DNA of 64,000 nt from Bacillota bacterium. Its GTDB lineage: Bacteria > Bacillota > Sulfobacillia > JACIYH01. Below the pieces are notes generated by a model. It saw only the letters and a program-made list of their open reading frames with translations. It was not told the origin of the DNA and made no database searches. Positions 11,991-59,553 of the stretch are shown here, one piece after another (position 1 is the stretch's first letter; every line of letters starts with the position of its first letter). The stretch lies in assembly GCA_040757085.1 (NCBI GenBank), contig JBFLXJ010000007.1, positions 1 to 64,000 of the forward strand, written 5' to 3'. The position numbers and the translations under genes were made by a program.

Positions 11991-11999
11991 CAGGGGGAA

Positions 12000-13489: not shown

Positions 13490-14396
13490 GGCCCATTACG
13501 CCCCTCGGCATAACAAGGATTACCACCACCAGGATTAAACCGTAAGTGACAAGGCGCAACTGCGGCCCCATGCGCAGGACCTGAGGAACCCAGGTCAACA
13601 ACAACGACCCTAACAATGGACCGACAACGGTACCTCTGCCTCCGATGAGAACCATCATAAGGACCTCTATGGTGCCGCTTACGCCGAACTGCTCCGGTGT
13701 CAAGCACGACATAAATGGCGCGTACAAGCACCCGCCGAGAGCCGCCAAAGTACTCCCTACAACAAATGCAGTTAACTTGGCCACCTTGCTGTGAACACCC
13801 AGTGCCTCGGCCAAGTCCTCATCCCCACGGACAGCGATCCAAGCCTTGCCCAAGGTTGTCTTTGTGATTACGATCCAGACCACGAGCGTAACGCAAAGGA
13901 AAACCGTGAGCACGGTATAGTACCATGCCTCGGGGCTGCTGATTTCAAAGCCCAGTATTCTCGGCCGCTGAAGAACCAGCAAACCCTGGGTCCCCCCTGT
14001 CAACCTTTCCAAGTTAGTAAGCAGTAAAACCACGCTCTCCCCGACCGCCAATGTGCTGATGCCGAAGAAGTGACCCCTTAGCGCGAGGCCCGGGTAACCA
14101 ACCGCTGCTGCGAGGAAACTCACGGTCGTCATACCTGCCAACAACGCCCAAACGTACGGCCACCCCCCTTTCGTCACCAAAAGGCTGCATGTATAAGCCC
14201 CAAGGCCCGCAAACGCCATGTGCCCAAACGAAAACTGGCCGGCATAACCAAATAGGACGTTGTATCCTGTGGCTATGATAGCGTATATCAGGGCAAGGCT
14301 TAGTACGGTCAGCGTGTACTCGCTTGCTACCAAAGGCAAGATGAACCCGAGTAACACGGACACTCCGATCACCAACAGCCGGGTTTGTGACTTCAC
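13443..14396 (-). CDS. livM: ABC permease LivM
   Basis: Polytopic membrane protein of 317 residues with the LivM pattern: N-terminal hydrophobic segments (VLLGFILPLVAS, LIYAIIATGYNVLFGYAGQFSFGH) and the EAA-like cytoplasmic region GKAWIAVRGDEDLAEALG. The final part carries VVGPLLGSLLL and several glycine-rich helices. With LivH it forms the membrane channel. The gene starts 19 bases after the livH stop and overlaps livG at its end. Confidence 0.9.
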   Translation of the reverse strand: MKSQTRLLVIGVSVLLGFILPLVASEYTLTVLSLALIYAIIATGYNVLFGYAGQFSFGHMAFAGLGAYTCSLLVTKGGWPYVWALLAGMTTVSFLAAAVGYPGLALRGHFFGISTLAVGESVVLLLTNLERLTGGTQGLLVLQRPRILGFEISSPEAWYYTVLTVFLCVTLVVWIVITKTTLGKAWIAVRGDEDLAEALGVHSKVAKLTAFVVGSTLAALGGCLYAPFMSCLTPEQFGVSGTIEVLMMVLIGGRGTVVGPLLGSLLLTWVPQVLRMGPQLRLVTYGLILVVVILVMPRGVMGLVERRREGTSVARVS

Positions 14397-14414
14397 TCAA
14401 ACTACACCTCCGTC

Positions 14415-15272
14415 TTAGCGCCCGGCTTTTGAAGCCACCAGGAGGCCTGCGTACAGGAGGGCGTAGGCGAACAAATCCTGCCACTGAGCGGCCGTCAGTG
14501 CAGTTCCCACACTCTCGACAAGACCTATTGCTAAGCCAGCAACAAATGTGGAGGTAATATTACCCAAGCCCCTGTAAGCTCCACCCAAAAGAACCGCCGC
14601 AAACCCCTTCAACACGTATCGTGCGCCCAGGTACGGAGTCAGAACAAATAGAACACCCAGCCCTACTCCAGCCAATGCGGCCAACATGCCACTGAAAACA
14701 TAACTCGCTGCCTCGACTCTGTCCGCATTGACACCTACAAATTTAGCTCCGTCTATGTTGCACGCCGCAGCACGGATTTGGCGTCCTATCCGGGTGCGCC
14801 CCAGAATCCACAACGCCGCCGCCAAGCTGACCACCGATAGGCCGATAAAGAGACAGCGGAGGACCGGAATCGAAGCGCCAAATACCCTCAACGAGCCCAG
14901 CGAAGGCACGTGAATCTCTCGGGCCGCCCCTGTCACCGCCAACTCCAAACCATTCTGGATGACGAGCGATAGGCCAGACGAGATAATGAACCCGTTAACA
15001 AGGTCTCGCTGCGTGAAATGAAAGGTTCCGCGGGCAACCAAGGCCATCAGCAAGCCTGTGCAGACTATCCCAACGGGCGCAGCAAATGGCAAGGGGAGGT
15101 GCAACGTTCCCAGCAGCATCCAGACCAGATAGCCGCCAAGCACCATGAATTCACCCTGAGCGAGGTTAAGGATGCCCCAGAGACCAAACGTTACTGCCAA
15201 CCCAATCCCCACTAACCCATAGAAAGACCCCAGCGCTAAGCCATTCAGTACAGCTTGCAACAACGCGGCCAC
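14415..15272 (-). CDS. livH: ABC permease LivH
   Basis: The second permease of the Liv-type importer, about 285 residues. The beginning LLQAVLNGLALGSFYGLVGIG and the following FGLWGILNLAQGEFMVLG are very characteristic of LivH. I placed the start at GTG 15272 because the usual N-terminus begins right there and GGTGGGGG lies upstream; the reading frame is open back to 15380 but that extension (Gly/Pro/Asp rich) is not membrane-like. There is a gap of about 230 bases to the binding-protein gene. Confidence 0.88.
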   Translation of the reverse strand: MAALLQAVLNGLALGSFYGLVGIGLAVTFGLWGILNLAQGEFMVLGGYLVWMLLGTLHLPLPFAAPVGIVCTGLLMALVARGTFHFTQRDLVNGFIISSGLSLVIQNGLELAVTGAAREIHVPSLGSLRVFGASIPVLRCLFIGLSVVSLAAALWILGRTRIGRQIRAAACNIDGAKFVGVNADRVEAASYVFSGMLAALAGVGLGVLFVLTPYLGARYVLKGFAAVLLGGAYRGLGNITSTFVAGLAIGLVESVGTALTAAQWQDLFAYALLYAGLLVASKAGR

Positions 15273-15500
15273 GCCCTCGCACCCCCACCGGTCATCAGTC
15301 TTCCCCGCGCCTACCGGGGGGAGAGCAGGTACCGAACGTCCTAAAACTACTCCTTCACCTGCTCCCCCCACCTGTGCCACAAGATCTCTATACTATCCCG
15401 AGTCCATAGGCCGCGCCCCCTGCTCAGGATAAGGGACGCAACAAGGAGGCGTGCCCTCACGGCCAGGACAGGCTGCGCCGATCACCAATACTTTCCTCCC

Positions 15501-16694
15501 TTACGGCGTTACGTGCTCTCTCTCAATCTGACCGTCATGTACGTCGTACATGAAGTAGTCGACCAAGATTTGTCCTTTACCGTCAAACGAGATGGTCCAT
15601 ATTTTCCCCTCGTATCGCATTCCGTGCAATGCGGCCGCCAACTTGGGAACGTCCTCGACTGTTCCGGTTTTCTTCATTGCCTCTACGATGGCATAAAGCG
15701 GTTCATATACCGCCGCAGCCCGAGGAATCATGGCATAGTCAGGCTCCCTACCGAACAGGTGCTTATAATCTGTAATGAACTCCTGGACGCCCGGGAGAGA
15801 ACGGGTTTGCGGATCCAAGAAGTTCTTTTCCTCTACTCCGATGAAATGTCCCGAGGCAATATCGTCCTTCCGCTCAAGGGCAACCTTGGGCGTTATTCTG
15901 TTCGTCGCGAAGTTCCGGAATCCCAGTTCCAAAGCCTGCTTCAACATGGGCCTGACATCCTCGTCGGTGTTACCCATGAACAAAAGATCCGGCTTGAGCG
16001 CGGCTATCTTGCTCAGCTGGGGATAGAAGTCAGTTGTTCCGGTGGGATAGTACTCTTCAGCCACGACCTCTAGACCCCGTGCGCGGCAAGCCTCTGAGTA
16101 TATGGGCACGAGCATCTTCCCTAGTGCGTTGTTCTGGTCTAGAAACGCCACCTTCTTGACGCCCGGAATTTTTCTGAGCACATAGTCAACAAGCTTGTTC
16201 GCTGTACCGTTTGGTCCGAAATCTGCATTGTAGCAGTTGAACGAATACTCGTAACCAGGCTGCCCCAACATTTTTTGATGCGCCGTTGCCGCCGTAAAAT
16301 GTAACACCTGCCGCCCACGGATGAGATCAAGCACAGGCAAGGTACACGGGGTCGTTTGCGTAGCAAACAGTATCTTTACCTTGTCAACATCGAGGAGACG
16401 TTTAACGAATGCTACGCTTTCGTCTGGTTTTGAACGATTGTCGTATATGAGCAGCTTGAGCTTATATTTCGTCCCGCTTACGTCGAAGCCTCCGGCCTTC
16501 TCTATCTGGTATGCTGCTACCTGCATCGCTTCCACTCTCGGAAGTCCCCAGACAGCCTGAGGACCCGTCTGTTCTATTACTACTCCTACAGGTACCTCCC
16601 TCAGGGAACTCCCTTGCTTGCCGCCGCACCCAGCAAGGAACACGGCAGCAGTTATGAGCAGGACAATCCACCCGCACGTTAACCTGCGCATCAC
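15501..16694 (-). CDS. livK: Extracellular substrate-binding lipoprotein of the Liv-type importer
   Basis: The 397-residue protein starts with a lipoprotein signal: a positively charged MMRR, a hydrophobic core and the lipobox LAGC, after which the mature protein would be lipid-anchored outside. The rest fits type I periplasmic binding proteins (Leu/Ile/Val receptor family), e.g. VPVGVVIEQTGPQAVWGLP at the start and KLKLLIYDNRSKPDESVAFV. Such proteins bind amino acids, amides, urea or aromatic acids; the ligand cannot be told here. The ATG overlaps the regulator's stop as ATGA, tying expression to the GntR gene. Confidence 0.9.
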   Translation of the reverse strand: MMRRLTCGWIVLLITAAVFLAGCGGKQGSSLREVPVGVVIEQTGPQAVWGLPRVEAMQVAAYQIEKAGGFDVSGTKYKLKLLIYDNRSKPDESVAFVKRLLDVDKVKILFATQTTPCTLPVLDLIRGRQVLHFTAATAHQKMLGQPGYEYSFNCYNADFGPNGTANKLVDYVLRKIPGVKKVAFLDQNNALGKMLVPIYSEACRARGLEVVAEEYYPTGTTDFYPQLSKIAALKPDLLFMGNTDEDVRPMLKQALELGFRNFATNRITPKVALERKDDIASGHFIGVEEKNFLDPQTRSLPGVQEFITDYKHLFGREPDYAMIPRAAAVYEPLYAIVEAMKKTGTVEDVPKLAAALHGMRYEGKIWTISFDGKGQILVDYFMYDVHDGQIEREHVTP

Positions 16695-17563
16695 GATTCC
16701 TCCCTCCTTGGTTGCGCACGCTTTCTCCTCCGCCCCTCTCCACAGGTTTTACCCGAAATCGGAATCCCACCTCCCTCGGATGGACCCTGCACCTCCACAC
16801 GAGCACTTGTCAGGGCATCACGGATGGCGTCCACGTGTGCAGCCATCAGTTTCGAACTCTGCTTTGCATCTCGAGCCTCTAAAGCATCGACAATCAGCCT
16901 GTGATCAGACAAGGCCCGTTCTCGCACCCCAGGAAGCGTGACAGTCAATTCTCTACTGGCGCGCAGCAAACTCCCTATGCTCTCCATGATAGCCATGAGC
17001 ACGGGGTTGCGGCTCGCTTGAGCAATGACGGAGTGTATGCGCAGGTCTGCCTCAAGGAAGCGACGCGGGTCATCGAGAGCCTCCGCCGCTTGGCTAATGC
17101 ACTTACGCAATGCCGCAAGCTCGTCCTGCGTGATGCGTTGGGCAGCGAACTCGGCCACGGCTGCTTCCAGAACCCTGCGAGCCTCAAATAAGTGCTCGAT
17201 AGTCATGACACCGAGAGACAGAAACATGCGGTAAGGCTCTATGAGGGATCCTGGCTGGAGTGAAGTCACGTATGTACCGTCACCATGACGTACCTCAAGA
17301 ATATTCATCATCTGCAGAGCCCTCAAAGCTTCGCGAACCGCTGGCCGACCAACACCCAATTCAGAAGCCAACTCGCGTTCAGGAGGCAGGCGGTCACCGG
17401 CCTTCAGACGGCCGGTAGATATCATGGACACAATCTGACGGGCTACTTTTACCGCGAGGATGTCCCGCTCGATGGGCGAGAACGGAATACGGGTCAACGT
17501 ATACCACACCCTTGCGTTCCAACTGACCAGCTGGGCATGCCACTTAACTGGCCTTACCACCAT
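16691..17563 (-). CDS. FadR/GntR-family regulator (FCD domain)
   Basis: Winged-helix domain at residues about 35-100 with the GntR signature (LKAGDRLPPERELASELGV, RPAVREALRAL), followed by an FCD ligand-binding domain. The metal-type residues are seen in EADLRIHSVIAQASRNP, SDHRLIVDAL and MAAHVDAIRDAL. It is the first gene of the long minus-strand cluster and very likely controls it in response to an acid-type ligand, as FCD regulators usually do. The start is uncertain: ATG 17563 has only AAGG upstream, and later GTG/TTG codons are possible. The C-terminal tail is unusually basic. Confidence 0.88.
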   Translation of the reverse strand: MVVRPVKWHAQLVSWNARVWYTLTRIPFSPIERDILAVKVARQIVSMISTGRLKAGDRLPPERELASELGVGRPAVREALRALQMMNILEVRHGDGTYVTSLQPGSLIEPYRMFLSLGVMTIEHLFEARRVLEAAVAEFAAQRITQDELAALRKCISQAAEALDDPRRFLEADLRIHSVIAQASRNPVLMAIMESIGSLLRASRELTVTLPGVRERALSDHRLIVDALEARDAKQSSKLMAAHVDAIRDALTSARVEVQGPSEGGGIPISGKTCGEGRRRKRAQPRREES

Positions 17564-17712
17564 ACCTTATTCTACGCGCACTCCGCAAATCCTTCTCGGC
17601 GGCGGGACCACTCCACAGGTCCTCAGGGATTAGTCGCAAGTGGCGGAAGTGTTGAGGGCTGAGTGCGTTGGGGCGCTTGGGTCTTTCCTACAGCTGAGTT
17701 TCAACCCCATGG

Positions 17713-18102
17713 CTACGGCAAGGGTAGACCCAGGTGGGCAAAGATCATGCGATGAAGCGGGCTAGCAACGTTGAACTGGTAGCGGCCAATCACCATAGTG
17801 TTTCCTTGGATCATTTCCAGCTGCCGCCTCAGCAACTCCTTTTCGTCTTCCCCAAAGACGTTGCCTGAGGAGTTCGCGGCGGCCAGGGCTCCGCCGAGAA
17901 ACGCTACCTGCCTTGGTGCGTCAAGGTCATGCGTCGCACAAGAAGCATATCTCGACCGGACTGCGGGTCCGACGGCCACGGCAGCGCAACGCCTGCGCCT
18001 TTCTGCAGAAACTCGATCAGCAGATCACTCGCGGTCAGCCAGCCAGTCCTCCCGAGATATTCCGGGTCTCAACGGGATCCGCTGCAGGTCTGCCCTCACC
18101 AT
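17713..18102 (-). pseudogene. Frameshifted gene, about 130 codons, family unknown
   Basis: Three reading frames join into one sensible protein. Frame 1 starts at ATG 18102 (MVRADLQRIPLRPGISREDW); the second reads LTASDLLIEFLQKGAG and then LPWPSDPQSGRDMLL; the third reads RQVAFLGGALAAANSSGN and ends with SPLHRMIFAHLGLPLP. The first break coincides with a 4-base tandem duplication (GACTGGCTGGCTGACC instead of GACTGGCTGACC); the second lies at the CACCAAGGCAGG stretch. I do not recognise the family. It sits beside a transposase remnant in a decayed stretch. Confidence 0.5.
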
Positions 18103-18133
18103 GAAGGGATGCCTGCCACCCCAACTGCGCACC

Positions 18134-18427
18134 CTACCCACTAGGAGCCGGCACCAAAAGGGCGTGAAATGATGCTTTTCTACCCTGAGGAAATCTCTGG
18201 ATGCCGACCCGCTGGATGAGGATCGGCCCGGCGAGCTGGGCGGGACTCACGGAGGGGCGGCCGATGCCTGCATAAAGGTGGGCGAACTCCTCTTCCCTGA
18301 GGTTTCCCTGTTCCCAGGCCCAGGCGCGGAAGCGGGCCCAGAAGGACTTCTTGGGGATGCGGTCCATCCAGCCCCAGGTGTTTTCCACGTGCCAGTTGGT
18401 GTTGGCCCGGCCCAGCATCGGCACCAC
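18134..18427 (-). pseudogene. Transposase N-terminal remnant
   Basis: The first 70 or so residues look like the start of a long DDE transposase: MLGRANTNWHVENTW, GWMDRIPKKSFWARFR and GRPSVSPAQLAGPILIQ. The sequence then loses the family pattern and ends after 97 codons, where about 400 more residues are expected. It differs from the intact transposase at 10.5 kb, so it is a second, older element. No matching end repeats were found. The gap from 18430 to 18720 holds no gene that I can see. Confidence 0.6.
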
Positions 18428-18719
18428 CGACCTTGCTCCAAATTGTTGCTACGAATGGATTTTAGAAGCCTAAACCTGGACCTGTGTTGCGGGACACGAC
18501 AAGCACCTACTTGCAGGCAGGGCCAGGGAACCCCTGGCCAGAAGCTCATCCACAGCTCCCTCCCCCTCCCGCAAGCACCCGGCCCGCGCCTCCCCGGCTA
18601 AGGCTTACGCCCGGGACGAGGCCAATTGCTCCACCCCGGAGCAAAACAAAGGTTTTCACCGATTACTTAAAGATTAGCACGTTTCCTGCATAGGGTGTAC
18701 CTCCCCCGTCGGGACCGTG

Positions 18720-19208
18720 TCAAGGGATGCTCCCCCAGCCCCCCCAGCAGCCCGTAAGCCCAGGGCAGCAAAGCATCCCTCCGTGGTACCGGAGCCGGTG
18801 GACCACATGTCCCTCCCTGGTGATAGTCTCAATGCCCCAGAAGCGTTCCACGCGGCCATGAGTCACATCCCTGTATAAGTAAGGCCTGCTCCTGAGCAAG
18901 CGGGGACGGCGATAGGGGCGTTCCGGCGTAACCGGCTGCAGGGCTAAGCGCAGAAACTCGTACAGTTCGGCCGCGTCGACTTCGGTCGGGAGAATGCCCC
19001 CGGCGTAACCCATGGCCCAGATAGGGGACGAATCGTAGTAGACTATCCCCTGACCCACAAAATGTCGGAAGCCGAAGTAGATGTCCCGGTACAGCAGTGC
19101 TCCCTCCCGGCATTCCAGTCGCCGCGCACCGGGTAGCAGCGGCGAAACGCTGGCCTCACCCCCCTGGGACGCGTATGTTTGTCGTTCACGAATAGCATTC
19201 GGTGTCAA
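18720..19208 (-). CDS. DUF5680-like protein
   Basis: A protein of up to 162 residues resembling the DUF5680 family, which has no known function. Supporting motifs are the aromatic-rich core LLYRDIYFGFRHFVGQGIV, the YAGGI loop and the final FWGIETITREGHVVHRLRYHGG. The start is uncertain: the first 35 residues are not conserved-looking, and a start nearer residue 20-40 is possible. The C-terminal tail after YHGG is rich in Cys, Gly and Trp and may be read-through into noncoding sequence. It is isolated among remnants. Confidence 0.55.
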   Translation of the reverse strand: MTPNAIRERQTYASQGGEASVSPLLPGARRLECREGALLYRDIYFGFRHFVGQGIVYYDSSPIWAMGYAGGILPTEVDAAELYEFLRLALQPVTPERPYRRPRLLRSRPYLYRDVTHGRVERFWGIETITREGHVVHRLRYHGGMLCCPGLTGCWGGWGSIP

Positions 19209-19344
19209 ACGGACGTTTCTCTCCGAACCTTTGCCGAGAAGCTAACCCTGCCCCCAAATGCGCATGCACCTTCCGCACGCTCCAGCAAATGCCCAAGTAA
19301 TGCCGTGGGCCCCGTGCACACTATGTGGCGAGGAGGTGAGGAGC

Positions 19345-19587
19345 GTGCCCAAATTCATGAATCAGCCCAAGGTGCTCCCAGAGTCCGTACTTGATACCTT
19401 CAAGTACGAACTGGCGGATGAACTGGGCATCACGCCTAAGATCCGCGACGGGTACTGGGGTGATGTTCCCGCGCGCGAATGCGGCAGGGTAGGCGGCAAG
19501 ATTGGTGGCAACATCGTGAAAGTTATGATCCGTCACGCCGAGCAAGCGTTGGAACAAAACCAGGGCCAGGGTCGCTCCACCTTCTAA
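19345..19587 (+). CDS. Alpha/beta-type small acid-soluble spore protein
   Basis: SASP of about 80 residues that coats spore DNA. The family hallmarks are clear: LDTFKYELADELGI (with the protease cleavage region), then GYWGDVPARECGRVGGKIGGNIVKVMI in two short conserved blocks. The start is GTG 19345, preceded by AGGAGGTGAG with ideal spacing; upstream codons in the same frame are not SASP-like. A hairpin terminator follows. Expression is expected in the forespore under sigma G; I did not identify the promoter with confidence. Confidence 0.9.
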   Translation: MPKFMNQPKVLPESVLDTFKYELADELGITPKIRDGYWGDVPARECGRVGGKIGGNIVKVMIRHAEQALEQNQGQGRSTF

Positions 19588-19618
19588 CCGGAGGTACGGT
19601 CGGGGGGCAAGCCTCCGT

Positions 19619-19648
19619 GGGGCGAGGGTGTCGCTCCTCGCCCCTTCT
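19619..19648 (+). terminator. Hairpin terminator after the SASP gene
   Basis: GGGGCGAG and CTCGCCCC pair perfectly around a 10-base loop, followed by TTCT. It lies 31 bp after the SASP stop. The T run is weak, so efficiency is uncertain. Confidence 0.55.
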
Positions 19649-19767
19649 CACCCAAGCTCCCCCCTTTGCATAAGGGTTCCTCTCTACGGTCCCATGTGAC
19701 CCCTGACCCTGAGCCCCCACTCGTCAAACCGGGCCAGCAGGGGCAAGTTCAGAGGAGGTGTTCTCCG

Positions 19768-20283
19768 GTGGCCAAAAATACCACGTCGCAAAACATAGAC
19801 CTGCTTCGGCAGAGCCTGGGTCCCATCCCCTCCCCCGGCAGTGCCCAGACGCCGGCGGGATATCTCACCCAGGCCGTCACCACCATACAAAACATCCTCC
19901 GTCAGGAGCAGTTCACCTCGGAGCAGGAGTTGCAAAGCAGCCTGACCCAGTCCTCCACCAAGGTATCTCAATCCCAGCGTCTGGACCAGATGCTGACCCT
20001 GATCAATCAACTGGTACAGACGGCCCAGGAGGGAGCCGACGCCGTACGCCAGAACCTGCCCCACTTCCAGCAAACCCTGCAGGAATTGAAGACGCAGATC
20101 GCCGAAGAGGAAACTCAGATCGGCACCCAGGTATCCCAGGCCCTCCAGCAGGCGGTGTCGAGCCTGGCGCAGGCCCACGCTGCCATGATACAGGGCCAGT
20201 CATTCCGCGACCTCAACCGCTTGGTGGCGGAGGCCGAACACCTGGTGGCCCAGATCCAGAAACCCACCGACGTGGTTTCCTGA
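19768..20283 (+). CDS. Gln-rich coiled-coil protein, unknown function
   Basis: This 171-residue protein starts at GTG 19768, with GGAGGTG at proper distance. Nearly the whole chain is predicted helical: repeated Gln/Leu/Ala heptads (QRLDQMLTLINQLVQTAQEG, LQELKTQIAEEETQIGTQV) point to a coiled coil. There is no signal peptide, membrane segment or cysteine. I do not know the family. It follows the SASP gene on the same strand after a terminator-like hairpin, so a sporulation link is possible but only by position. Confidence 0.6.
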   Translation: MAKNTTSQNIDLLRQSLGPIPSPGSAQTPAGYLTQAVTTIQNILRQEQFTSEQELQSSLTQSSTKVSQSQRLDQMLTLINQLVQTAQEGADAVRQNLPHFQQTLQELKTQIAEEETQIGTQVSQALQQAVSSLAQAHAAMIQGQSFRDLNRLVAEAEHLVAQIQKPTDVVS

Positions 20284-49939: not shown

Positions 49940-50725
49940 TCACCTGGCCCACTTTCCCTCACTTTTGGCAGGTCGCTGCTCTCCGGGGGCAGGGATGCCC
50001 ACTGCCCGGCGCAGAGCCGCCAGTTCCTTCCCGGTCAGGTAACGGAACTGTCCGGGCGGCAGGCGCCCCAGGCTCAAAGGTCCCATCCTCACGCGGGTCA
50101 GGCGCAGAACGGGATGCCCCACCGCTTCCGCCATCAGCTTTACCTGATGGTACCTGCCTTCCCGCACGGTGACCTCCAACCATGCGTTCTCCCCATCCCT
50201 CCCCAGTATCCGTACCCGGGCAGGCGCGGTGGGCCTGCCGCCCACCATCACGCCCCGCCGCAGGCGAGACAGTGCCCGGGGCCCGGGCACCCCGCGTACC
50301 AGGGCGCGGTAGGTCCTGGGCACCTCGAACCGCGGGTGGGTAAGGCGAAATGCCAGGGGGCCGTCGTTGGTGAGCAAGAGGAGACCAGAGGTGTCCCAGT
50401 CCAGCCTCCCCACCGGGTAAAGCCGCACATCCCCAGGCACCAGATCCAGCACGGTGGGCCGGCCCTGCGGGTCCCGCGCCGTGCTCACATACCCGGGGGG
50501 TTTATGTAACAGGATGTAAACGTGTTCCTGAGGCCGCACCGGGTGGCCATCCACCGCTACCCGGTCGCAGGCGGGGTCAACCGTAGTGCCCAGGCGCGTG
50601 ACCACGTGCCCGTTGACCTGTACCCGGCCCGCCTGGATCAGCTCGTCGCACTTGCGGCGCGAACCCATCCCGCAGCGGGCCAGGTAACGATTCAACCTCT
50701 CACGTGGGCGAGGGCCTTCTTCCAA
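49940..50725 (-). CDS. rluB: 23S rRNA pseudouridine synthase RluB
   Basis: An RsuA/RluB-family enzyme of 261 residues: an S4 RNA-binding domain (ERLNRYLARCGMGSRRKCDE) followed by the synthase domain with catalytic Asp in VGRLDWDTSGLLLLTNDG and the REGRYHQVKLM segment. The start is TTG 50725 with GGAGGACT upstream. In Bacillus subtilis rluB follows spmB directly; here the catabolic block is between them. It overlaps the upstream P-loop gene by 26 bases. Confidence 0.92.
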   Translation of the reverse strand: MEEGPRPRERLNRYLARCGMGSRRKCDELIQAGRVQVNGHVVTRLGTTVDPACDRVAVDGHPVRPQEHVYILLHKPPGYVSTARDPQGRPTVLDLVPGDVRLYPVGRLDWDTSGLLLLTNDGPLAFRLTHPRFEVPRTYRALVRGVPGPRALSRLRRGVMVGGRPTAPARVRILGRDGENAWLEVTVREGRYHQVKLMAEAVGHPVLRLTRVRMGPLSLGRLPPGQFRYLTGKELAALRRAVGIPAPGEQRPAKSEGKWAR

Positions 50726-51749
50726 GTAACCAGTCCTCCACCACCTGCCCCAGCTGCTCGGGCCCGTCCCGCTTCACGTCTATCACCGGAATCTGCGATC
50801 CCACGTGTTCTGCCACCCGGGCCTTGAGCTGGGACGCGTCGAGCCTGGCTGCCCGGAACCGGTTGGGCCCCAGCAACCGGGGATAAAAGGGGTTTACGGT
50901 CACCGCCAGTATAGCAGGTCCGCCTACTACTGCCAAACCCGGTCCCAGCGACTCCAGCCGGTACACCATCTCGAGTACCCGTTCGGCCGGGCCAGCCAGC
51001 AATAGCTGCACGGGATGAGCAAAAAGCAGCCACCCCCACCCCTTCCCCGCTTCCATGCCGCTTATCATATCGGCGAGCCAGGCCAGGCCGGCCAGGGTTA
51101 CCATACCCAGGATCAGCACGGTCTGGCCCCCGGCCAGCAGCCGGGCCGCCACCCGGCACTCATCCTCCGATTGCAGGTGACGCAAACGGCATCCCTGTAG
51201 CCGATGGCGGGGTAAGGAAAACAGCCGGGTGAGGGCGTGCACCTCCCGGCCCAGCACCTCCGGGTCAACAGAGCGCGCAGCTCCCGTGGAAATCACCAGC
51301 CCCTGCGCCCTCCCCAGGGGCGAAAGACGCCCGAAGGCTCCGTCCACGAGGAGCAGGTCGGACTCCTGCCGGGCGGCCAGCAGGCGGCAAAGCCGGCCCA
51401 AGCCCCGCCGGTGGGCGGGACCGGCCAGTATCACCCGTCCGGGCGAAGTGACTCTGGCAACCACCAGAGGGCCCAGGGCGGTGGAGACGCCACAGTCAGC
51501 CAGCAGGTCCCACCCCAGCGGGGACTTCTCCAGGCAGGGGCGGGCCGTGCCCACCAGGTCGCCCGCGTGCACCTCCACCCGCGGCTTGGGAAGACCAGTG
51601 AGGTTGTCTAGTTCTTCGCCATCGTAACCTATGCTGGTCAGCGCCACCCGGTAGCCGCGCCGCCGGGCTTCTTGAAGGATGGCGGTGAGGGCCGTAGTCT
51701 TGCCCGTGTTCTTGGCCGTTCCCACGCACCCCAGTACCGGGAGGTACAT
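50700..51749 (-). CDS. P-loop protein, KamB-type aminomutase reactivase candidate
   Basis: This 349-residue protein opens with a P-loop VGTAKNTGKTTALTAIL, where the spacing differs by one residue from a plain GxxxxGKT, and continues with ALTSIGYDGEELDNLTGLPKP and the strand LLLVDGAFGRLSPL (Walker B-like). I recall the same opening in KamB, the ATPase that with KamC reactivates lysine 5,6-aminomutase; family assignment is from memory. It directly abuts the mutase stop codon, supporting a chaperone role that replaces damaged cobalamin. KamC (MutS-like) is absent here. Other ideas: a generic GTPase for metallocofactor handling. Confidence 0.6.
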   Translation of the reverse strand: MYLPVLGCVGTAKNTGKTTALTAILQEARRRGYRVALTSIGYDGEELDNLTGLPKPRVEVHAGDLVGTARPCLEKSPLGWDLLADCGVSTALGPLVVARVTSPGRVILAGPAHRRGLGRLCRLLAARQESDLLLVDGAFGRLSPLGRAQGLVISTGAARSVDPEVLGREVHALTRLFSLPRHRLQGCRLRHLQSEDECRVAARLLAGGQTVLILGMVTLAGLAWLADMISGMEAGKGWGWLLFAHPVQLLLAGPAERVLEMVYRLESLGPGLAVVGGPAILAVTVNPFYPRLLGPNRFRAARLDASQLKARVAEHVGSQIPVIDVKRDGPEQLGQVVEDWLLGRRPSPT

Positions 51750-53588
51750 CTAGGCCCGGCCGGAGCGTGACACCGTGCCCTTGCCCGCCCGGCCGGGGTT
51801 GCCTCCTTCCTCGCGATTGCCGAACACCCCCGCATACAGCGCCTCACAAAAAGAAGGCTGTTGCAGGGCTTCCCGCAACGTCGCCGCCACACCTTCCAGC
51901 AGTTGCTCGGCCAGGTGCTCTGCCCGGGGGGTGGGGGAGACGGCGGCCTCCCCCAGGAAACGGAACACCTCCCCTACCGCCCGGAGGGAATCCACCCGGG
52001 CGGCGGCGGTGATCGGTCCCCGCGAGTAAGCCTCGTCGGTGGAGGCGATGGTAATGGCGTCCACCCCCAGAGAAGCGGCCAGGCCGGCGTGCAGGGCAGT
52101 GGTTACCGCCGATTGCACCCTTTCCTCCGTGTGGGTCAAGAATCCGATGGGCGCCCCTGGCCAGATGGGGGCATCGATGATCCGGCGCAGGGCAATCACC
52201 TTGGCGGCGTTCCAGTCCACGTAGTCCTGGTCCATGTATCCTTCCAGCATGGCCTCCGGAGAGTAGCAGAACAGGGGCTGCAGGATCGGCCGCGCCCCCA
52301 GTTCCAGGGCCGTGGCCACCACCGCCAGCATGCCGGCCACCGCCTTGTGTGCGGGCACCCCGCCCAGTTCCTCGTTCGTCACCACGTCGAATGGGAGCCC
52401 GTAATCCGCGGCCAGGCGCATGGCAAACAACGCGTCGGCCAGAAGGCGCTCCGGATCGGTACCCCCGCCGAGGGACCCGTACACCGGGTTGATCTTAGTC
52501 AGGTCCGCACCCGTGGCGGCGGCCCACACCACCGTCTCCGGGGTGTTGAGACCCCGGTGGGCCCGCACCTGCCAGAGCAGGTGATTGCCGGTGGCCTCCC
52601 GGAAGAAGCGCAGGTTCTCCGGCGTGCAGAAGGTGCCATCGGCACTCCAGGCCAGGAGTCCCCGTGGCAGCCCTTCGTGCCGGGCGCTCCAGGCGGGATC
52701 GAAGTGAACGGTACCTTGCGCCCCCCACTGGCCGGCCACCACCGCGTGCAGGGCATCCATGACCGGGCATCCCGTGCCGTACTGGATGAATACCACGGGG
52801 CGCCGGTCGTACCCGGTCGCCACCAGGGGACGCCATCCCCTGCCCTTCCCCAGCAGTTCCAGGGCGCGATCTCGCTCTTCCTGCCCGATGGGCCGGCAGT
52901 GGGCGGGCAACTGCCCCTGCCTCATGGCCACCACCTCTGGGCTGGCCAGGCGCAGGTATTCCTCCTCCAGGCGGGCCCTCTCTACCTCGTCCGCCGTGAG
53001 CATGGCCCGCACGAGAACGGCCCGCTCCGTGCCCGGGGTGCTGGTGCCCTCTCCCCAGGCGAGAATCCCCCGCGCCAGTTCCCCCGCCCACCGGCCAATG
53101 TGGGCATCCTTCCACCGGTAAGTGTAGCGGGCACACAGGTCGGGTTTTTCGAGGCTGAGGGCCTCCTCACCGTGGTGGAACGGCATTTCCTCCACGAACG
53201 CCACCGCTGCTTCCGGCGGCGTCCCGGGACCGAAGCCAGCATCGTATCCCATTTCCGCCGCCAGTTCGGGTCGCACCGCCATCCCGCCGACGGCAACGCG
53301 CAGGCGCGGCCGCAGGCCGGCACCATCCAGCAGGTCCGCTAGGTGCGCCAGAGTCTCGGCCGACTCGTACCCGACGGTGCGGCTGACCAGCAGGCAGTCG
53401 TAGTGATCCCCCAGGGCCGCCCGGGTGATCTCTTCCGCGGTGAGGTCCGGCGGCAGGAGGGTAACCCGGTGCCCGCGGGCCTCCAAGCGCTTTTTGATCA
53501 GCTTCAGGCCCACGTCGTGTACGGGATCGAGCGGGGCCAGCAAGACCCGCCTGGCCCGCGAAGCAGCCCCGGTTTCGCTAGCCGGCAT
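51750..53588 (-). CDS. Cobalamin-dependent mutase-like protein, B12 domain + TIM barrel
   Basis: A 612-residue protein. Residues 15-130 match the B12 domain of lysine 5,6-/ornithine 4,5-aminomutase beta subunits: LLVSRTVGYESAET at 66-79 and the diagnostic GYDAGFGPGT at 114-123. The cobalt-ligand histidine would be H24 in LDPVHDVG, one residue longer than DxHxxG. The PLP lysine expected at H+11 is L35; the nearest lysines are K32/K33. From about 240 on, a TIM-barrel-like domain (IQYGTGCPVMDALHAV, NPVYGSLGGGTDPERLL, ITIASTDEAYSRGPIT) recalls glutamate mutase E/KamD. The domain order (B12 first) is reversed from OraE. Substrate unknown. Confidence 0.72.
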   Translation of the reverse strand: MPASETGAASRARRVLLAPLDPVHDVGLKLIKKRLEARGHRVTLLPPDLTAEEITRAALGDHYDCLLVSRTVGYESAETLAHLADLLDGAGLRPRLRVAVGGMAVRPELAAEMGYDAGFGPGTPPEAAVAFVEEMPFHHGEEALSLEKPDLCARYTYRWKDAHIGRWAGELARGILAWGEGTSTPGTERAVLVRAMLTADEVERARLEEEYLRLASPEVVAMRQGQLPAHCRPIGQEERDRALELLGKGRGWRPLVATGYDRRPVVFIQYGTGCPVMDALHAVVAGQWGAQGTVHFDPAWSARHEGLPRGLLAWSADGTFCTPENLRFFREATGNHLLWQVRAHRGLNTPETVVWAAATGADLTKINPVYGSLGGGTDPERLLADALFAMRLAADYGLPFDVVTNEELGGVPAHKAVAGMLAVVATALELGARPILQPLFCYSPEAMLEGYMDQDYVDWNAAKVIALRRIIDAPIWPGAPIGFLTHTEERVQSAVTTALHAGLAASLGVDAITIASTDEAYSRGPITAAARVDSLRAVGEVFRFLGEAAVSPTPRAEHLAEQLLEGVAATLREALQQPSFCEALYAGVFGNREEGGNPGRAGKGTVSRSGRA

Positions 53589-53820
53589 TGGCGACCACCT
53601 TCTTCAGCCAGGCGTATTCGCCTCCCGGGCGGTGCACGTAGGCACGCAGCCTCACCCGTGCCCCTACCCCCCGGAATTGCAGGGACACCACATCGCACTC
53701 GCCAAGCCCCAACTCTTCGATCAGCGCGCGGGCAAGACGCACGCACTCCTCTTCACTCTGCCCGAGCAGGAACGTTTCCACGTCTATGGCGTCGGCCACA
53801 TGGTCCAGTGCCCTGTGCAT
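53578..53820 (-). CDS. Small protein like the aminomutase dimerisation domain
   Basis: An 80-residue protein starting at ATG 53820 behind GGGAGGCAGG. After MHRALDHVADAIDVETFL, the stretch EEECVRLARALIEELGLGEC followed by VVSLQF and LRAYVHRP resembles the OAM-dimerisation domain that precedes the B12 domain in KamE, which has a ...LA..MGL....VV....F.....Y pattern. The similarity is weak and from memory. It overlaps the mutase gene by 11 bases, the stop and start interlocking, so the two products are probably made in equal amounts and associate. Alternative: an unrelated small subunit like OraS, which it does not resemble in sequence. Confidence 0.55.
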   Translation of the reverse strand: MHRALDHVADAIDVETFLLGQSEEECVRLARALIEELGLGECDVVSLQFRGVGARVRLRAYVHRPGGEYAWLKKVVANAG

Positions 53821-53895: not shown

Positions 53896-54621
53896 CTAAC
53901 GGGCTTCGCTGGCGTGTTCTTCCCAGAACCTGATCACGTCGCGGATGATATTGTCTATGTGGCGAGCCATCGCCTGCTGCGCACCCTCGGAATCGCGGGC
54001 TATCACCTTTTCCAAAATGGCACGGTGGTCGGCCACCATCACGCCCCCTACCCGACCCCGGATGTACTCCAGCACGGGGGAGAGCTGCCCCTCTTCCCGC
54101 ACCAGTTCGCTCGCGGCCAGCAGCACGCGGTTACCGGCCGCCTGAGCGAGCAAGCGATGGAAGGAGGCATCCTCGTGCCATCCGGTCATCTGCGATGCCA
54201 CCTGGGCCTGGTGGTGGTTAACCACCTGTGCCATCTGTTCGACCAGGTCGGCAGGGGCACGCAGAGCGGCTAGGCGCGCCACCTCGCTTTCGATCGCTCG
54301 GCGTGCCTCCAGGATCTCCAGCAACTGTTCCCGGTTGTGAGCACGCAGTGCCTGCAGAAAGGCCCGCTGGTTCTGGGACGCCCGCCGCTCCTGGGCCAGA
54401 GCCTGAAGGCGCTCGCGCCCCTGGGCGGTCAGCACGCGCCCCCGGAAGCCCTGGCGCTCGGTGAATCCCCGCTTGTCCATCTCCCGCAGGATGCGCCCGG
54501 CGGTAGCCTCGGAAACCCTGATGCCCGCCTGGGCCAGCCCGTCGCGTAGACCCCACGATCCCATGGGCTCGGGTGATTCCCCTATTGCCTTCAGGGCCAG
54601 ATACTCCAGTTCTCGCTCCAC
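53896..54621 (-). CDS. Regulator: NrpR/RNase R-type winged helix + FCD
   Basis: The 241-residue chain has an N-terminal winged helix unlike GntR: GLRDGLAQAGIRVSEATAGR, ILREMDKRGFTERQGFRGRV and LTAQGRERLQ match the domain found in archaeal NrpR and next to RNase R. From residue 90 comes an FCD ligand-binding domain (LEARRAIESEVARLAA, EDASFHRLLAQAAGN, ADHRAILEKVIARDSEGA, MARHIDNII) with the usual Asp/His metal residues. It lies between the PLP enzyme and the mutase set, on the same strand, and is likely the local repressor or activator, sensing a carboxylic acid of the pathway. Confidence 0.8.
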   Translation of the reverse strand: MERELEYLALKAIGESPEPMGSWGLRDGLAQAGIRVSEATAGRILREMDKRGFTERQGFRGRVLTAQGRERLQALAQERRASQNQRAFLQALRAHNREQLLEILEARRAIESEVARLAALRAPADLVEQMAQVVNHHQAQVASQMTGWHEDASFHRLLAQAAGNRVLLAASELVREEGQLSPVLEYIRGRVGGVMVADHRAILEKVIARDSEGAQQAMARHIDNIIRDVIRFWEEHASEAR

Positions 54622-54691: not shown

Positions 54692-56149
54692 TCAGGCCAC
54701 ACCCGCCCAGCGGGCCAGGATGTCCAGCACCTTGACCAGCCCGCGCACCGCCAGGCGCATGCGGTCAGGGATCAGGTTGCCGTCGGGATCGCTGGTGCCC
54801 ATGCCGGGCGATATGAAGATGTTGGCATCATAGCAGATGGTAGGGATGATCCCCATCTGGGAAAGGCCGCTCTGGATGAGGTGGCTGCCCGCGTACATGT
54901 CTTCGATGGAGAAAACCGGCAGGCCCAAACCGTCCCTCCAGGTGCGCTCATAATTGATCTCCACCGTGCCGGAGTTGTACGACTTGGTGACCACCAGGCC
55001 GGAGCGCAGCCGGGCGGGGAGCCCCTGCAGTTCCTCACGCACGATGATCTCCAGTTCGTCCACCGGCCGGGTGACCACCTCAGGCCGGTCGCGCAGCACC
55101 TTGAGGGCCTGGATCTGCGTCAGAAGCGCCTCTTTCCCCGGGTCCTGGGTCACGTAGGCAGCCTTGCCGTACGAGGCCGTGGTGCCGTAGCGGTCCCCGT
55201 GCATGCCCAGGGCTCGCCGGATGGGCACCATCACTTCTTCCCGGCCGATGATCAGCCCGCTGGTGGCCGCCCCCGAGGCCTTGTCCATGCTGTAAACCAT
55301 GACGTCCGCCCCGATGGCACGCGGATCGGTGCCCACAAACGGGAGGCCCCAGGCGTTGTCCACCACATAGGGCACGTTGTACTGGCGGGCCAGATCTCCG
55401 ATGTACTTGAGCAACACCGGCGTCCCCTTTTCGTCCTTCACCCCGTATCCGTAGCCGGGGGTATCATAGCCCAGGGAACTGAACCCGCTGAGGAGGTCGC
55501 GGTGCCTCTCGGCGGCCTCGGCCAGAGCCTGGCGGCTGCCTTCGGGGTCCACGTCCAGCATAAAGGGGACCGGGTAGAACTTGATGCCGTGATTTGGGTA
55601 TTTCGCCCCCGGCAGCGGGACGATCACCGTGTCGAGGTTGTTGAGCCGCTTGCCGTAGAACCCAAGCTCACCGGCCGTGCAACCCCGGTCAGCCAGGATG
55701 TCCTTGTACCGGGGAGGGAAGGGCCGGCCGTACGCCCCCTGGTGGTGCAGGTGCTTTTCGTAGGGCACAATGTATCGGGCCCGGTAGTTATCGCCCCGGC
55801 CGAGATTGGGCGGCGTGCACAGACAGTCAAACGAAACCCAGAGACCCGCTTCACAGGTGTTAACCGGGCAGACGTCCCACTCGTCGCCGTACACGTCCTT
55901 GACGATTTCCCGGATCTCATCCACCAGCCGGGCCAGCGGGACTACGTCAGTAGCCCCCTTCTCGCTCGCCTCCAGGATGTCACGACGCAGGGGAGCAGGA
56001 GCACCGGAAATTGCCCCTGTCAGGCCGAACTTGCCCCGCAGTTCGGCAGGGATGCCGATTTCGTCGGCTGCCTTTCGCATCTCCTCGTAGATGCGCCCAG
56101 CGTTTTGCTGCAGGTAACGGTATAACTGAAACCGGTAAGAGAAACCCAT
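54692..56149 (-). CDS. PLP-dependent fold-type I enzyme, SelA-like, function unknown
   Basis: This 485-residue protein carries a fold-type I core: PLP-ring Asp in YVVDNAWGLPF (D264) and the Schiff-base lysine in YSMDKASGAATSGLIIG (K290), a pattern closest to SelA and its relatives (SGDKLLGGPQAG). The N-terminal 190 residues (with GLTGAISGAPAPLRRD and several cysteines in CPVNTCEAGLWVSFDCLC) look specific to this family. Possible reactions are beta- or gamma-elimination, ammonia-lyase or aldol chemistry. ATG 56149 follows GGAGGGG. It is placed next to the regulator and mutase, suggesting it acts on the same amino acid. Confidence 0.75.
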   Translation of the reverse strand: MGFSYRFQLYRYLQQNAGRIYEEMRKAADEIGIPAELRGKFGLTGAISGAPAPLRRDILEASEKGATDVVPLARLVDEIREIVKDVYGDEWDVCPVNTCEAGLWVSFDCLCTPPNLGRGDNYRARYIVPYEKHLHHQGAYGRPFPPRYKDILADRGCTAGELGFYGKRLNNLDTVIVPLPGAKYPNHGIKFYPVPFMLDVDPEGSRQALAEAAERHRDLLSGFSSLGYDTPGYGYGVKDEKGTPVLLKYIGDLARQYNVPYVVDNAWGLPFVGTDPRAIGADVMVYSMDKASGAATSGLIIGREEVMVPIRRALGMHGDRYGTTASYGKAAYVTQDPGKEALLTQIQALKVLRDRPEVVTRPVDELEIIVREELQGLPARLRSGLVVTKSYNSGTVEINYERTWRDGLGLPVFSIEDMYAGSHLIQSGLSQMGIIPTICYDANIFISPGMGTSDPDGNLIPDRMRLAVRGLVKVLDILARWAGVA

Positions 56150-56249: not shown

Positions 56250-56690
56250 TCAGGCCGGGGCACCACCGATCACCACCTGGTCGCCCAGCCCGACGCGCCA
56301 GGCCAGCCCGTCCAGGGCCACCTTGCCCTTGAGCACCACGTTGAGGTGGTTGGGCATGTGGGTGGCATCGAAGCCGGCTATCTCACCTACTACCGAACCC
56401 CTCACCCGGACGTCGTCGCCCACCACCACCACGCCCCCCTGCTTAACTTCAAAGAAGCCCAGGTAGGAGATGGCATTCACCCGGCAGCCGGGCCCGGCGT
56501 CCTCGGTAGTGAGGATGAGTTCGTGCACCTCACCCTGGCACAGCACCCGGGAAGGTTGCGGGATCAACTCCAACCCCCGATCGGGCAACGACCCCGCCAG
56601 CACGGCCACCACCACTCCGGTGACCGGCCGGTGACGCACGAACCGGGCGGGCGGGTTTTGTCTCAGGTAAGGATCGCGTCCGGGTGTCAC
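56250..56690 (-). CDS. Small conserved-looking protein of the mutase block, unknown
   Basis: A 146-residue protein that I do not recognise. It looks all-beta: alternating hydrophobic strands (VTGVVVAVLAGSLPDRG, VNAISYLGFFEVKQGGVVVV, VVLKGKVALDGLAWRVGLGD) separated by Gly/Pro turns, with two His-containing loops (GEVHELILTTEDAG, DATHMPNHLNVVLK). No signal or membrane segment. It sits between the FAD oxidoreductase (79 bp away) and the PLP enzyme (100 bp), same strand, so it probably serves the same pathway as a subunit or binding protein. Confidence 0.65.
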   Translation of the reverse strand: MTPGRDPYLRQNPPARFVRHRPVTGVVVAVLAGSLPDRGLELIPQPSRVLCQGEVHELILTTEDAGPGCRVNAISYLGFFEVKQGGVVVVGDDVRVRGSVVGEIAGFDATHMPNHLNVVLKGKVALDGLAWRVGLGDQVVIGGAPA

Positions 56691-56769: not shown

Positions 56770-58092
56770 TCACCGGCCGTCGTCGCGCGCGGCGGCTGCT
56801 TCCGCCCGGGCCAGACTGGAGAATACCCCCTCCAGCCCTGCGTGCCGAACCCGCTGCCGGATCTGCGCGCGGTCGGTGGTGTAAAGCCCGAGCGACTTCA
56901 TGCGGGCAAAGTACACCGAACCCGAGAATGTGTACTTCTCGGTAAGCCCTTCCTCCGGCCCCCGCATCCTGTCGGTGACCTGAGCAATGGCATCTCCCAC
57001 TGCCAGGCTGGTGGGCAGAACGAGTAGCGGCAGGCCCGAGACCCAGCGGGCAGCGTTGTGACCGGCCAGCGTACCCGTGCAGATGGCCTCGGTGTGTCCC
57101 ACCATCGGACCGGCCTTCTCTCCGGCACAGAAGAGGTTGGCCACCCCTTCCACCCTCAGGGCCTCATCGTGGGGACTCATGGCCAGGTAGCGGATGGAAT
57201 TACCCACCCCGGCTGCATACGGGTCCTCGTAACGCGCATTTTCCATGCCCGGTATGGAACGCAGTGCCTCCAGCGGGAAGTAGCTGGTCATGAGCTTGGC
57301 GTGCCCGGTATCCAGAAGGATCAGGTTCTCGCCGAAGTCGGGCAGCGCGTACTGCTGACAGGCCTTCCTGGAGAGGTCGGCCTTACGCAGTTCCGGTGGC
57401 AGGGGCAGGATGACCACCCCGTCCCGATCCAGGACCCGCTGCAAGTCGGGAGCCAGAGAATCCTTGAGGATCTTGCACGACCCGCTCATGGAACCCACCT
57501 GGCCGGCCGGGGTGCGTCCCATCTTCTCCTTAACCCCCGCCTTCTCCGCCACGCTCACCCGGGGCCCGAAGGAGGGACAGCGCAGGACGCACATGCAGCA
57601 ACCATGCCCGTAGCGGGTGCAGTTACCCTGGGGGCCGGCACCACCGGTGGTGTCCACGAAGGCATCCCCCTCACAGTGCGTGTTACCCTGCGGGGAAATG
57701 GCTTCCACCGCTACCAGCCTGTCCTCGTGCATCTGGACCCCCGTCACCCGATGCTGCAAGTGTATGTGAACACCGGCTTCGTGCAGGATCCTGCGCACGC
57801 GGGGCTCGATGCGAGCCACATCGTACAGCGTGGCGTGCTTGTGCCCCGGGAACTCGATATTGCGATGCCTGGCCACGTCGTCCGCGGCCAGAAACAGCTC
57901 TCCGCCCCCCAGGGCGATCATCTCTTCCGCAGCAGTGAAGCGGCCATTGTTGCGCATGATGCCGCCCACCAGCCCCGTGCCCAGGAGCTGGTCGGTGCGC
58001 TCTAGCAGAACCACTTCTGCTCCTGCCTTGCGCGCGGCCAGGGAAGCAGCACACCCGGCCCATCCTCCCCCGATCACCACCACGCGCGCCAC
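56770..58092 (-). CDS. FAD-dependent oxidoreductase (FAD_oxidored type)
   Basis: A flavoprotein of 440 residues. The FAD dinucleotide motif is VVVIGGGWAGCAASLAARKAG, followed by LLERTDQLLGTGLVGGIM, characteristic of the FAD-dependent family with a conserved GGxxT/GG loop. A cysteine run (CTRYGHGCCMCVLRCP) may hold a redox or cluster site. Late in the chain, VANLFCAGEKAGPMVGHTEA closes the FAD site. The start is GTG 58092, seven bases after GGGGGTGAG. The gene follows the transporter, so it likely oxidises the imported compound or a product of the PLP enzyme. Confidence 0.82.
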   Translation of the reverse strand: MARVVVIGGGWAGCAASLAARKAGAEVVLLERTDQLLGTGLVGGIMRNNGRFTAAEEMIALGGGELFLAADDVARHRNIEFPGHKHATLYDVARIEPRVRRILHEAGVHIHLQHRVTGVQMHEDRLVAVEAISPQGNTHCEGDAFVDTTGGAGPQGNCTRYGHGCCMCVLRCPSFGPRVSVAEKAGVKEKMGRTPAGQVGSMSGSCKILKDSLAPDLQRVLDRDGVVILPLPPELRKADLSRKACQQYALPDFGENLILLDTGHAKLMTSYFPLEALRSIPGMENARYEDPYAAGVGNSIRYLAMSPHDEALRVEGVANLFCAGEKAGPMVGHTEAICTGTLAGHNAARWVSGLPLLVLPTSLAVGDAIAQVTDRMRGPEEGLTEKYTFSGSVYFARMKSLGLYTTDRAQIRQRVRHAGLEGVFSSLARAEAAAARDDGR

Positions 58093-58158
58093 GCTTCTCA
58101 CCCCCTGTTTTCCCGAGGGGAGGGGAAACCCCGCCGGGCTCCCCTCCCCAGTTTTGTC

Positions 58159-59553
58159 CTACGCGAGGATCATCGTCAAGATGGTAGCCGCCGCCAGAGC
58201 AGCTACCGTGGGTATGAAGTTCCGCCGCGTGAGGTCCATGGGCGAAACCCCCGTGATACCCGAGACGGGCAGCACCGCCCACGGGATCAGGGTGCCGCCA
58301 CCCACCCAGATGCCTCCCAGCTGACCCATGGCGGTCAGGGTGGCCAGGCTCCCACCCGTGGCAGTGGCGAACACCTTAGCGGTGGAACCGGCCAGGTTCA
58401 GGCCCGAGAATCCGGAGCCATCCAGGCCGGTGATGGAGCCCACCACCGTCTGCCCGATGGCCGCCGCCACCACGTTCAGCGGTATGGCGGCAGCCAGGGC
58501 GGCACCGAAGTCGCCGAAGATACCCAGCGATCCTTCCGGCAAGAAGTCCCCCACGATAGCCTTGAACGGGCCCACTTCGCCTATTACAAAGAACCCGTAA
58601 ATGGGCAGTACCGGTCCGAACACGCGCAGGCCGAACACAAATCCCTCCACCAGGTGCTGGGTGATCTTCTCCAGAGCCTTATCGCCCATCGCCCAGAACG
58701 AGAAGATGACCATCACCAGGAAAGCAGTACCGCCCACCAGAGCGGTGGCATCCCCGCCCCGCAGGTCCAGGACAAACATCCCCACCACGTCCAGCAAAAA
58801 AGCGATGGGCACCACGATGGCGGCCGTGCGCGAGGCCGTTTCCCTGCCCGGGATAATCTCCTGCTTCTCCGCCTCCAGGCGCCCGGTCAAGTTGACACCG
58901 CTGATGCGCCCGCGCCTCATGTCCCGGCGGAGCAGCAAGTACCCCACCACGAGGGCAGTCAGCCCCGACACAAGTACCAGCGGCCACGACGCCACGATGA
59001 CGTCGTTCACCGGGATGCCCGCCGACGCGCTGGTTATGCGGGGTGCCCCCTGGATCACGAAGTCGCCGGAGAGCGCCGCCCCGTGTCCGGCCAGGTTGAT
59101 GGCGGAGGCAAAGCCTATGGCGGGCAACCCTGCGGATACGGCCGCAGGCATGAGCACAGCCCCCACCAGAGCAGTGGCGGGAGACGGCCAGAAGAACAGG
59201 GAGAACACGAACATGATCACCGCACTGCCGAAGTACGCCAGGGCCGGTGTGCGCATGAAGCCACGGAGGGGCGATATCATCCGCTCCATGGCCCCGATCT
59301 CGTTGAGCACTCGGGACATGGCTACGATGACGGATATGACCGCGATAGTGCTGAAGAGGTCGACCCCGGCGAAGACCACGCCGTCAAACGTGCTCCGGAT
59401 TGCCCTCACCAGGCTACCACTGGCGACCCAACTCACCGTCAGGATACCCAGCAGGCATGCCACCACCGGGTCGCGCCGCTTGATCATGAAAACCAGCACG
59501 ATGACAACAAAAGCCAGATAGACCCAGTGGTATGAAGTCAGCACAGGCATCAT
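58159..59553 (-). CDS. Ion-transporter-superfamily permease (GntP/DcuC-like)
   Basis: A 464-residue membrane protein with about twelve helices in two halves. It begins HWVYLAFVVIVLVFMIKRR like GntP/NhaC/DcuC-type carriers, with internal motifs INLAGHGAALSGDF, NVVAAAIGQTVVGSITG and a re-entrant LGGIWVGGGTLIPWAVLP. Such carriers move gluconate, dicarboxylates or amino acids with a cation. GGAGGAGGTGAG precedes ATG 59553. It is the first gene of the accessory block, and 198 bp separate it from spmB (59554-59751), in which no gene or clear terminator is seen. Confidence 0.75.
   Translation of the reverse strand: MMPVLTSYHWVYLAFVVIVLVFMIKRRDPVVACLLGILTVSWVASGSLVRAIRSTFDGVVFAGVDLFSTIAVISVIVAMSRVLNEIGAMERMISPLRGFMRTPALAYFGSAVIMFVFSLFFWPSPATALVGAVLMPAAVSAGLPAIGFASAINLAGHGAALSGDFVIQGAPRITSASAGIPVNDVIVASWPLVLVSGLTALVVGYLLLRRDMRRGRISGVNLTGRLEAEKQEIIPGRETASRTAAIVVPIAFLLDVVGMFVLDLRGGDATALVGGTAFLVMVIFSFWAMGDKALEKITQHLVEGFVFGLRVFGPVLPIYGFFVIGEVGPFKAIVGDFLPEGSLGIFGDFGAALAAAIPLNVVAAAIGQTVVGSITGLDGSGFSGLNLAGSTAKVFATATGGSLATLTAMGQLGGIWVGGGTLIPWAVLPVSGITGVSPMDLTRRNFIPTVAALAAATILTMILA

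Follow-up and report, generated by a model that had tools for sequence, protein, structure and literature searches.

Only two aminomutases that combine PLP with B12 are covered by a review of these enzymes (PMC3958899). In LAM, the phosphate of PLP is contacted by Arg184, by the Gly187-Gln188-Ser189 segment, and by Arg268, with Ser238 at the ring nitrogen, Tyr263 stacking, and Asn299 at the phenolic oxygen (PMC3958899). The locus described here lies on contig JBFLXJ010000007.1 of a Bacillota bacterium (GCA_040757085.1; GTDB lineage Bacteria; Bacillota; Sulfobacillia; JACIYH01), within a stretch of 64,000 nucleotides (positions 1-64,000 of the forward strand) that we refer to as the window. Its central gene, AMT, is accompanied by a small ORF, DIM, and by a reactivase gene:

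50700..51749, minus strand: KamB-type reactivase (NF052386, 174 bits, cut-off 210)
51750..53588, minus strand: AMT, B12 domain, KamD-like helical domain, and TIM-barrel mutase in one chain of 612 aa
51945..52805, minus strand: AMT TIM barrel, approximately residues 262-548 (KamD profile comparison; Foldseek matches to LAM/OAM)
52479..52496, minus strand: AMT Lys365-Tyr370, an invariant Lys at a predicted barrel-strand end and the Tyr aligned with LAM Tyr263
52551..52574, minus strand: AMT WQVRAHRG, residues 339-346, with invariant Arg342, His344, and Arg345
52839..53111, minus strand: KamD-like N-terminal helical domain of AMT, approximately residues 160-250 (KamD profile alignment; helices in the model)
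53190..53549, minus strand: B12-binding Rossmann domain of AMT, residues 14-133 (Pfam PF02310; KamE profile comparison)
53484..53519, minus strand: H24-L35 stretch, the site of the PLP-lysine loop of KamE/OraE, which is absent in AMT (alignment and spacing)
53578..53820, minus strand: DIM, a likely stand-alone dimerization domain of the KamE N-terminal type, ~80 aa (profile comparison; 79/79 loci)

LAM (KamDE; 1xrs, 8t0v, and 9q1a) and the AMT locus have in common a KamD-type helical domain with a TIM barrel, the stacking Tyr, B12 and dimerization domains of the KamE type, and a KamB-type reactivase. AMT differs from LAM in its domain order, in the separate gene for the dimerization domain, and in a DxxH rather than a DxH motif, and it is without the PLP-lysine loop, the phosphate loop, Arg184, Arg268, and Ser238. 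As in OraSE (3kow), to which its sequence is distantly related, the B12 domain and the barrel are joined in a single chain; however, OraE runs from barrel through dimerization domain to B12 domain and carries Lys629, whereas AMT runs from B12 domain to barrel without such a lysine, and no OraS-like gene was recognized near AMT. With GlmES/MutES (1ccw and 1i9c), AMT shares a loop-free B12 domain of the same spacing and the lack of a LAM-type PLP site; a QVR-H motif may be a further, tentative point of likeness. Unlike in GlmES, its barrel is not detectably related to GlmE, and the accompanying dimerization domain and reactivase resemble those of aminomutases.

The N-terminal region of AMT is a B12-binding domain of the base-off/His-on type and is nearest to those of aminomutases. 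Residues 22-129 match the Pfam B12-binding family (PF02310, E 1.8e-12), the closest NCBIfam models are Lys_5_6_beta (E 7.5e-12) and then OraE (E 5.9e-07), and profile-profile comparison (HH) of the domain with KamE returns E 3e-20. Scores stay far below the curated NCBIfam cut-offs (45.5 vs 280 for the KamE model and 27.8 vs 800 for the OraE model), and no single Pfam or NCBIfam model covers the whole chain. The two motifs by which the original prediction recognized a KamE/OraE-like domain, LLVSRTV (residues 66-72) and GYDAGFGPGT (residues 114-123), are both present in an ORF that is as it was described, together with the further B12-domain marks H24 (the putative cobalt ligand), S69-R70-T71, and G101-G102.

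The relationship of the barrel is more distant. A direct search gives a weak match to the KamD family (E 0.014), sequence likeness being weak at ~20% identity. With an AMT profile built from 30 family members, profile-profile comparison with KamD reaches E 1.1e-05 over 381 columns, including the helical N-terminal domain, compared with E 0.17-0.69 for control comparisons with reversed KamD profiles; the alignment starts at residue 165 of AMT, which corresponds to residue 17 of KamD. In a Foldseek search of the PDB with an AlphaFold2 model of AMT (mean pLDDT 82.6), the LAM alpha chain 1xrs_A ranks first (E 1.3e-17), the first seven matches are all LAM alpha or OAM chains, and acyl-CoA mutases come after. 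Judged by its sequence, AMT is a member of an as yet unnamed B12 family built on the KamD/OraE-type aminomutase scaffold, with the parts reordered.

This family is sizeable. We collected 109 full-length homologs, mostly from Bacillota and all with the same domain order; when 398 genomes from the phylum were searched in six frames, 39 contained full-length members of ~49-57% identity, and scanning species genomes yielded 79 named loci. Hosts include Sporomusa, Heliobacterium, Heliorestis, Tepidanaerobacter, Thermovorax, Fervidicola, Desulfovirgula, Desulfotomaculum, and Candidatus Fermentithermobacillaceae. The motifs DPVHD, Lys29, Arg70, Gly101-Gly102, and, in the barrel, VRAHRG are near-invariant across the aligned sequences, with H24, R70, G101, and G102 kept in every one of the 109. 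Because these motifs are common to all members, the architecture is fixed and is not an artefact of assembly. Two features singled out by the original prediction hold in all 109 members: the B12 domain precedes the barrel in one chain, and the His motif is an invariant DPVH, with the Asp at -3 rather than -2. An in-frame TGA in two homologs was considered as a selenocysteine codon and rejected, the TGA being a normal stop codon. As a separate observation, ten positions that are otherwise near-invariant, being shared by at least 95% of family members, are altered in the window AMT and its closest relative (L031); H314W, S299A, and G523R are among these changes.

What the original prediction overlooked is the dimerization domain, which is likely encoded by a separate small ORF directly upstream of AMT. 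The DIM ORF overlaps AMT by 11 nt and has an alternative GTG start at 53877, and a gene of the DIM family occupies the position directly upstream of AMT in all 79 loci. Profile-profile comparison matches DIM to the dimerization domain of KamE (E 2.3e-06) and to that of OraE (E 3.6e-04), against E 0.0014-0.4 for unrelated or reversed control profiles; searches of Pfam and of solved structures yielded nothing beyond CheY-like chance matches. DIM is thus likely a KamE-type dimerization domain, an assignment made by profile-profile comparison alone. Together, DIM and AMT would comprise all of the LAM/OAM parts in an apparent circular permutation, dimerization domain | B12 domain-barrel, and this order recurs in all loci examined. 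Downstream of AMT, the KamB-type reactivase is present in 65 of the 79 loci. Among its orthologs at other loci, two score above the NF052386 cut-off of 210 (216 and 246 bits) and three below it; a literature search on the KamB reactivase returned nothing useful.

A lysine follows the cobalt-ligand His at +11 in all 18 KamE and all 17 OraE sequences compared. In the alignment, this PLP lysine sits in a loop that is absent from AMT, from GlmS, and from corrinoid methyl-carrier proteins. The His and the start of the next conserved strand motif lie 21 residues apart in both AMT and GlmS, compared with 25 in OraE and 30 in KamE. The AMT value was measured automatically in 96 members; those of the remaining members that were inspected have LQPD or LAPD at this position. 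The original prediction correctly placed Leu35 at H24+11, but it took this for a change at the lysine position. Since the lysine-bearing loop is missing as a whole, Leu35 is no replaced lysine, and it aligns instead with the residue just past the loop. Nor do K32 and K33, the nearby lysines that were pointed out, qualify as substitutes, since neither is conserved (among the 109 members, position 32 is Lys in 48 and Arg in 39, and position 33 is Arg in 94 and Lys in 8).

The losses continue in the barrel. In the profile alignment, AMT lacks nine residues between its HFDP and SWGARTEG motifs, where LAM has the Arg184-Ser189 segment; Arg184 is replaced, Ser238 corresponds to the invariant Arg345, and Arg268 corresponds to Gly/Ala375. 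Asn299 aligns ambiguously, with either Val403 or Asn405. The stacking residue is retained, with LAM Tyr263 aligned to the invariant Tyr370. Five residues ahead of this Tyr, at the end of a predicted barrel strand, lies the invariant Lys365, and after the Tyr comes a glycine-rich loop, GSLGGGTDP, that could still serve as a phosphate binder. The PLP-independent aminomutase branch proposed in the original prediction is supported by two losses, that of the lysine loop in all members whose spacing was measured and that of most LAM-type PLP contacts, but PLP independence as such is left unproven by the invariant Lys365 near Tyr370.

The gene cluster extends beyond DIM, on the same strand, with a conserved set of neighbors that includes a separate PLP enzyme:

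53896..54621, minus strand: FCD-type (GntR-like) transcriptional regulator (Pfam FCD, 2e-21; 60/79 loci)
54692..56149, minus strand: fold-type-I PLP enzyme of the SelA/SepCysS/DgaE/Cap15 group (67/79 loci)
56250..56690, minus strand: DUF6917 protein (PF21891, 1.1e-42; 54/79 loci)
56770..58101, minus strand: GidA-like FAD oxidoreductase (PF01134, 1.5e-32; 49/79 loci)
58159..59553, minus strand: probable membrane transporter that matches no Pfam family (19/79 loci)

These neighbor counts, and that of the reactivase, are lower bounds, many of the contigs being short, as is the count of 35 AMT loci with a RidA-like gene. The strongest partner of AMT is the PLP enzyme, which occurs in the same 39 of 398 genomes as AMT, plus one genome without AMT (G050), and in 11 of 12 further AMT genomes, including those with a non-adjacent copy; the neighbors of the non-adjacent copies offered no clue to a pathway. 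Model and profile both place the enzyme in the SelA/SepCysS/DgaE/Cap15 group (8t7j, E 1.4e-13; 3wks; 7lc0), whose chemistry includes beta-replacement, ammonia-lyase, and oxidative reactions. It shares the fold of this group at only ~11-16% identity and forms a separate family. By sequence, both it and the FAD enzyme have remote fold relatives only. No cobalamin riboswitch was detected in the 64-kb window at the gathering threshold. RidA proteins are imine/enamine deaminases, and the combination of PLP enzyme, RidA, and FAD enzyme looks like a gene set for amino-acid catabolism with an imine intermediate. The separate PLP enzyme beside AMT suggests an undescribed route of anaerobic amino-acid degradation, and the conserved set as a whole matches no pathway that we could name.

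We consider it somewhat probable that AMT is an AdoCbl-dependent radical mutase without LAM-type PLP binding, acting in an amino-acid pathway whose PLP-dependent step is carried out by another protein. In such a scheme, AdoCbl would be bound base-off through His24, and closure of the B12 domain on the barrel would be accompanied by homolysis of the Co-C bond to give the 5'-deoxyadenosyl radical. The substrate, presumably an amino acid, would then be rearranged in the barrel with no PLP Schiff base of the LAM/OAM type, its carboxylate(s) held by the conserved residues Arg303, Arg342, Arg345, and His344. The KamB-type reactivase would service AMT, the companion PLP enzyme may process the amino acid after (or before) the rearrangement, and RidA and the FAD oxidoreductase would take the imine and redox steps. 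More tentatively, the whole family may be PLP-free, its B12 domain having kept a loop-free state and its barrel PLP site having been lost or never made, with an obligate second enzyme supplying the PLP chemistry.

The conserved barrel residues would also fit an enzyme that still uses PLP with AdoCbl and in which the Schiff-base lysine has moved into the barrel, to Lys365 or else to Lys415 or Lys463. The phosphate of PLP would then rest on the glycine-rich loop after Tyr370, and Arg345 would face the ring nitrogen as in alanine racemase. Four lysines (K29, K365, K415, and K463) are kept in at least 107 of the 109 members, and Lys365 closes a predicted strand ahead of the retained stacking Tyr. 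Against this stand the loss of both LAM phosphate arginines along with the Gly187-Gln188-Ser189 loop, and the separate PLP enzyme of AMT genomes, which suggests that PLP chemistry is done elsewhere. On balance, we regard a relocated lysine as unlikely.

A carbon-skeleton mutase resembling glutamate mutase, in which Arg303 and Arg342 form a claw for a dicarboxylic amino acid, appears to us improbable. By eye, WQVRAHRGLNTPET of AMT resembles QVRHGTPDAR of GlmE, which we treat as a lead only, and the spacing of the B12 domain equals that of GlmS. The arginine claw of GlmE consists of Arg66, Arg100, and Arg149; by the same visual match, Arg303 and Arg342 of AMT could correspond to Arg100 and Arg149, but the position of Arg66 is Gly or Thr. 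Profile comparison of the barrel with GlmE gives no signal, with E values of 0.1-0.6 that equal those of reversed controls whether profiles are whole or trimmed and alignments local or global, the GlmE model PF06368 has no match at the AMT locus, and the nearest family is KamD. The B12-domain phylogeny that had been named as a check groups AMT with KamE/OraE in a tree of 68 domains (support 92/80), a placement that is not decisive, with long branches and an AMT+GlmS grouping that is not rejected (p-AU 0.57). The suggested role of AMT as a link between aminomutases and glutamate mutase is not supported by the barrel, which is without detectable GlmE similarity; the B12 domain has only its loop-free form in common with GlmS, and this form is found also in corrinoid methyltransferase proteins. 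As its sequence places it, AMT represents an aminomutase-superfamily branch whose B12 domain is loop-free, as in other B12 proteins.

That AMT is an ordinary lysine 5,6- or ornithine 4,5-aminomutase isoenzyme is very improbable; likeness in all domains and the KamB-type reactivase would accord with it, but the PLP lysine and the phosphate site are absent, the scores lie far under the curated cut-offs given above, and many AMT-bearing genomes also encode true KamDE or OraE. We give next to no credence to a fusion of a corrinoid methyl carrier with a methyltransferase barrel. The loop-free B12 domain common to corrinoid proteins would speak for it, but the B12 domain and the barrel of AMT both have their nearest relatives among aminomutases, and the operon includes a mutase reactivase gene.

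If the AMT family does lack PLP altogether, then the aminomutase superfamily has a PLP-free member in an undescribed anaerobic pathway of amino-acid metabolism, from which it might be learned how PLP-bound aminomutases evolved out of plain AdoCbl mutases or degenerated into them. Why aminomutases need PLP, and how B12 came to be joined with it, can be tested on a large natural family that has their scaffold but not the PLP lysine. The set of mutase, dimerization subunit, reactivase, PLP enzyme, RidA, FAD enzyme, and DUF6917 protein is carried by ~10% of the sampled genomes of the phylum.

Several further features of these loci were apparent. The recurrence of DUF6917 connects this uncharacterized domain with the B12/PLP metabolism of amino acids; no description of DUF6917 or of the AMT family was found in the literature searched, in which subscription journals are thinly covered. 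The PLP enzyme family (~485 aa) is well conserved, with copies at loci L031-L109 being 56-93% identical to the window copy at a mean column identity of 75%, and two genomes (G257 and G281) hold extra, more divergent copies of 51-58% identity. In Desulfosporosinus (L088), the DUF6917-PLP-FAD set is present twice around one mutase, at 2922-6596 and 14965-18826. A Cys-rich protein with the N-terminal motif CPCxLA...CxxC...CDCxW is encoded at L033:12986-13954, L055:8681-9568 (minus strand), and L096:8789-9652 (minus strand). It adjoins the FAD enzyme or lies between FAD/transporter and DIM genes; short forms are on the opposite strand, and longer forms have a C-terminal 2Fe-2S motif and resemble an electron-transfer subunit. 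Finally, positions 1-20000 of the window have a G+C content of 57-61%, against 64-67% elsewhere, and a stronger GC skew, and are possibly of other origin.
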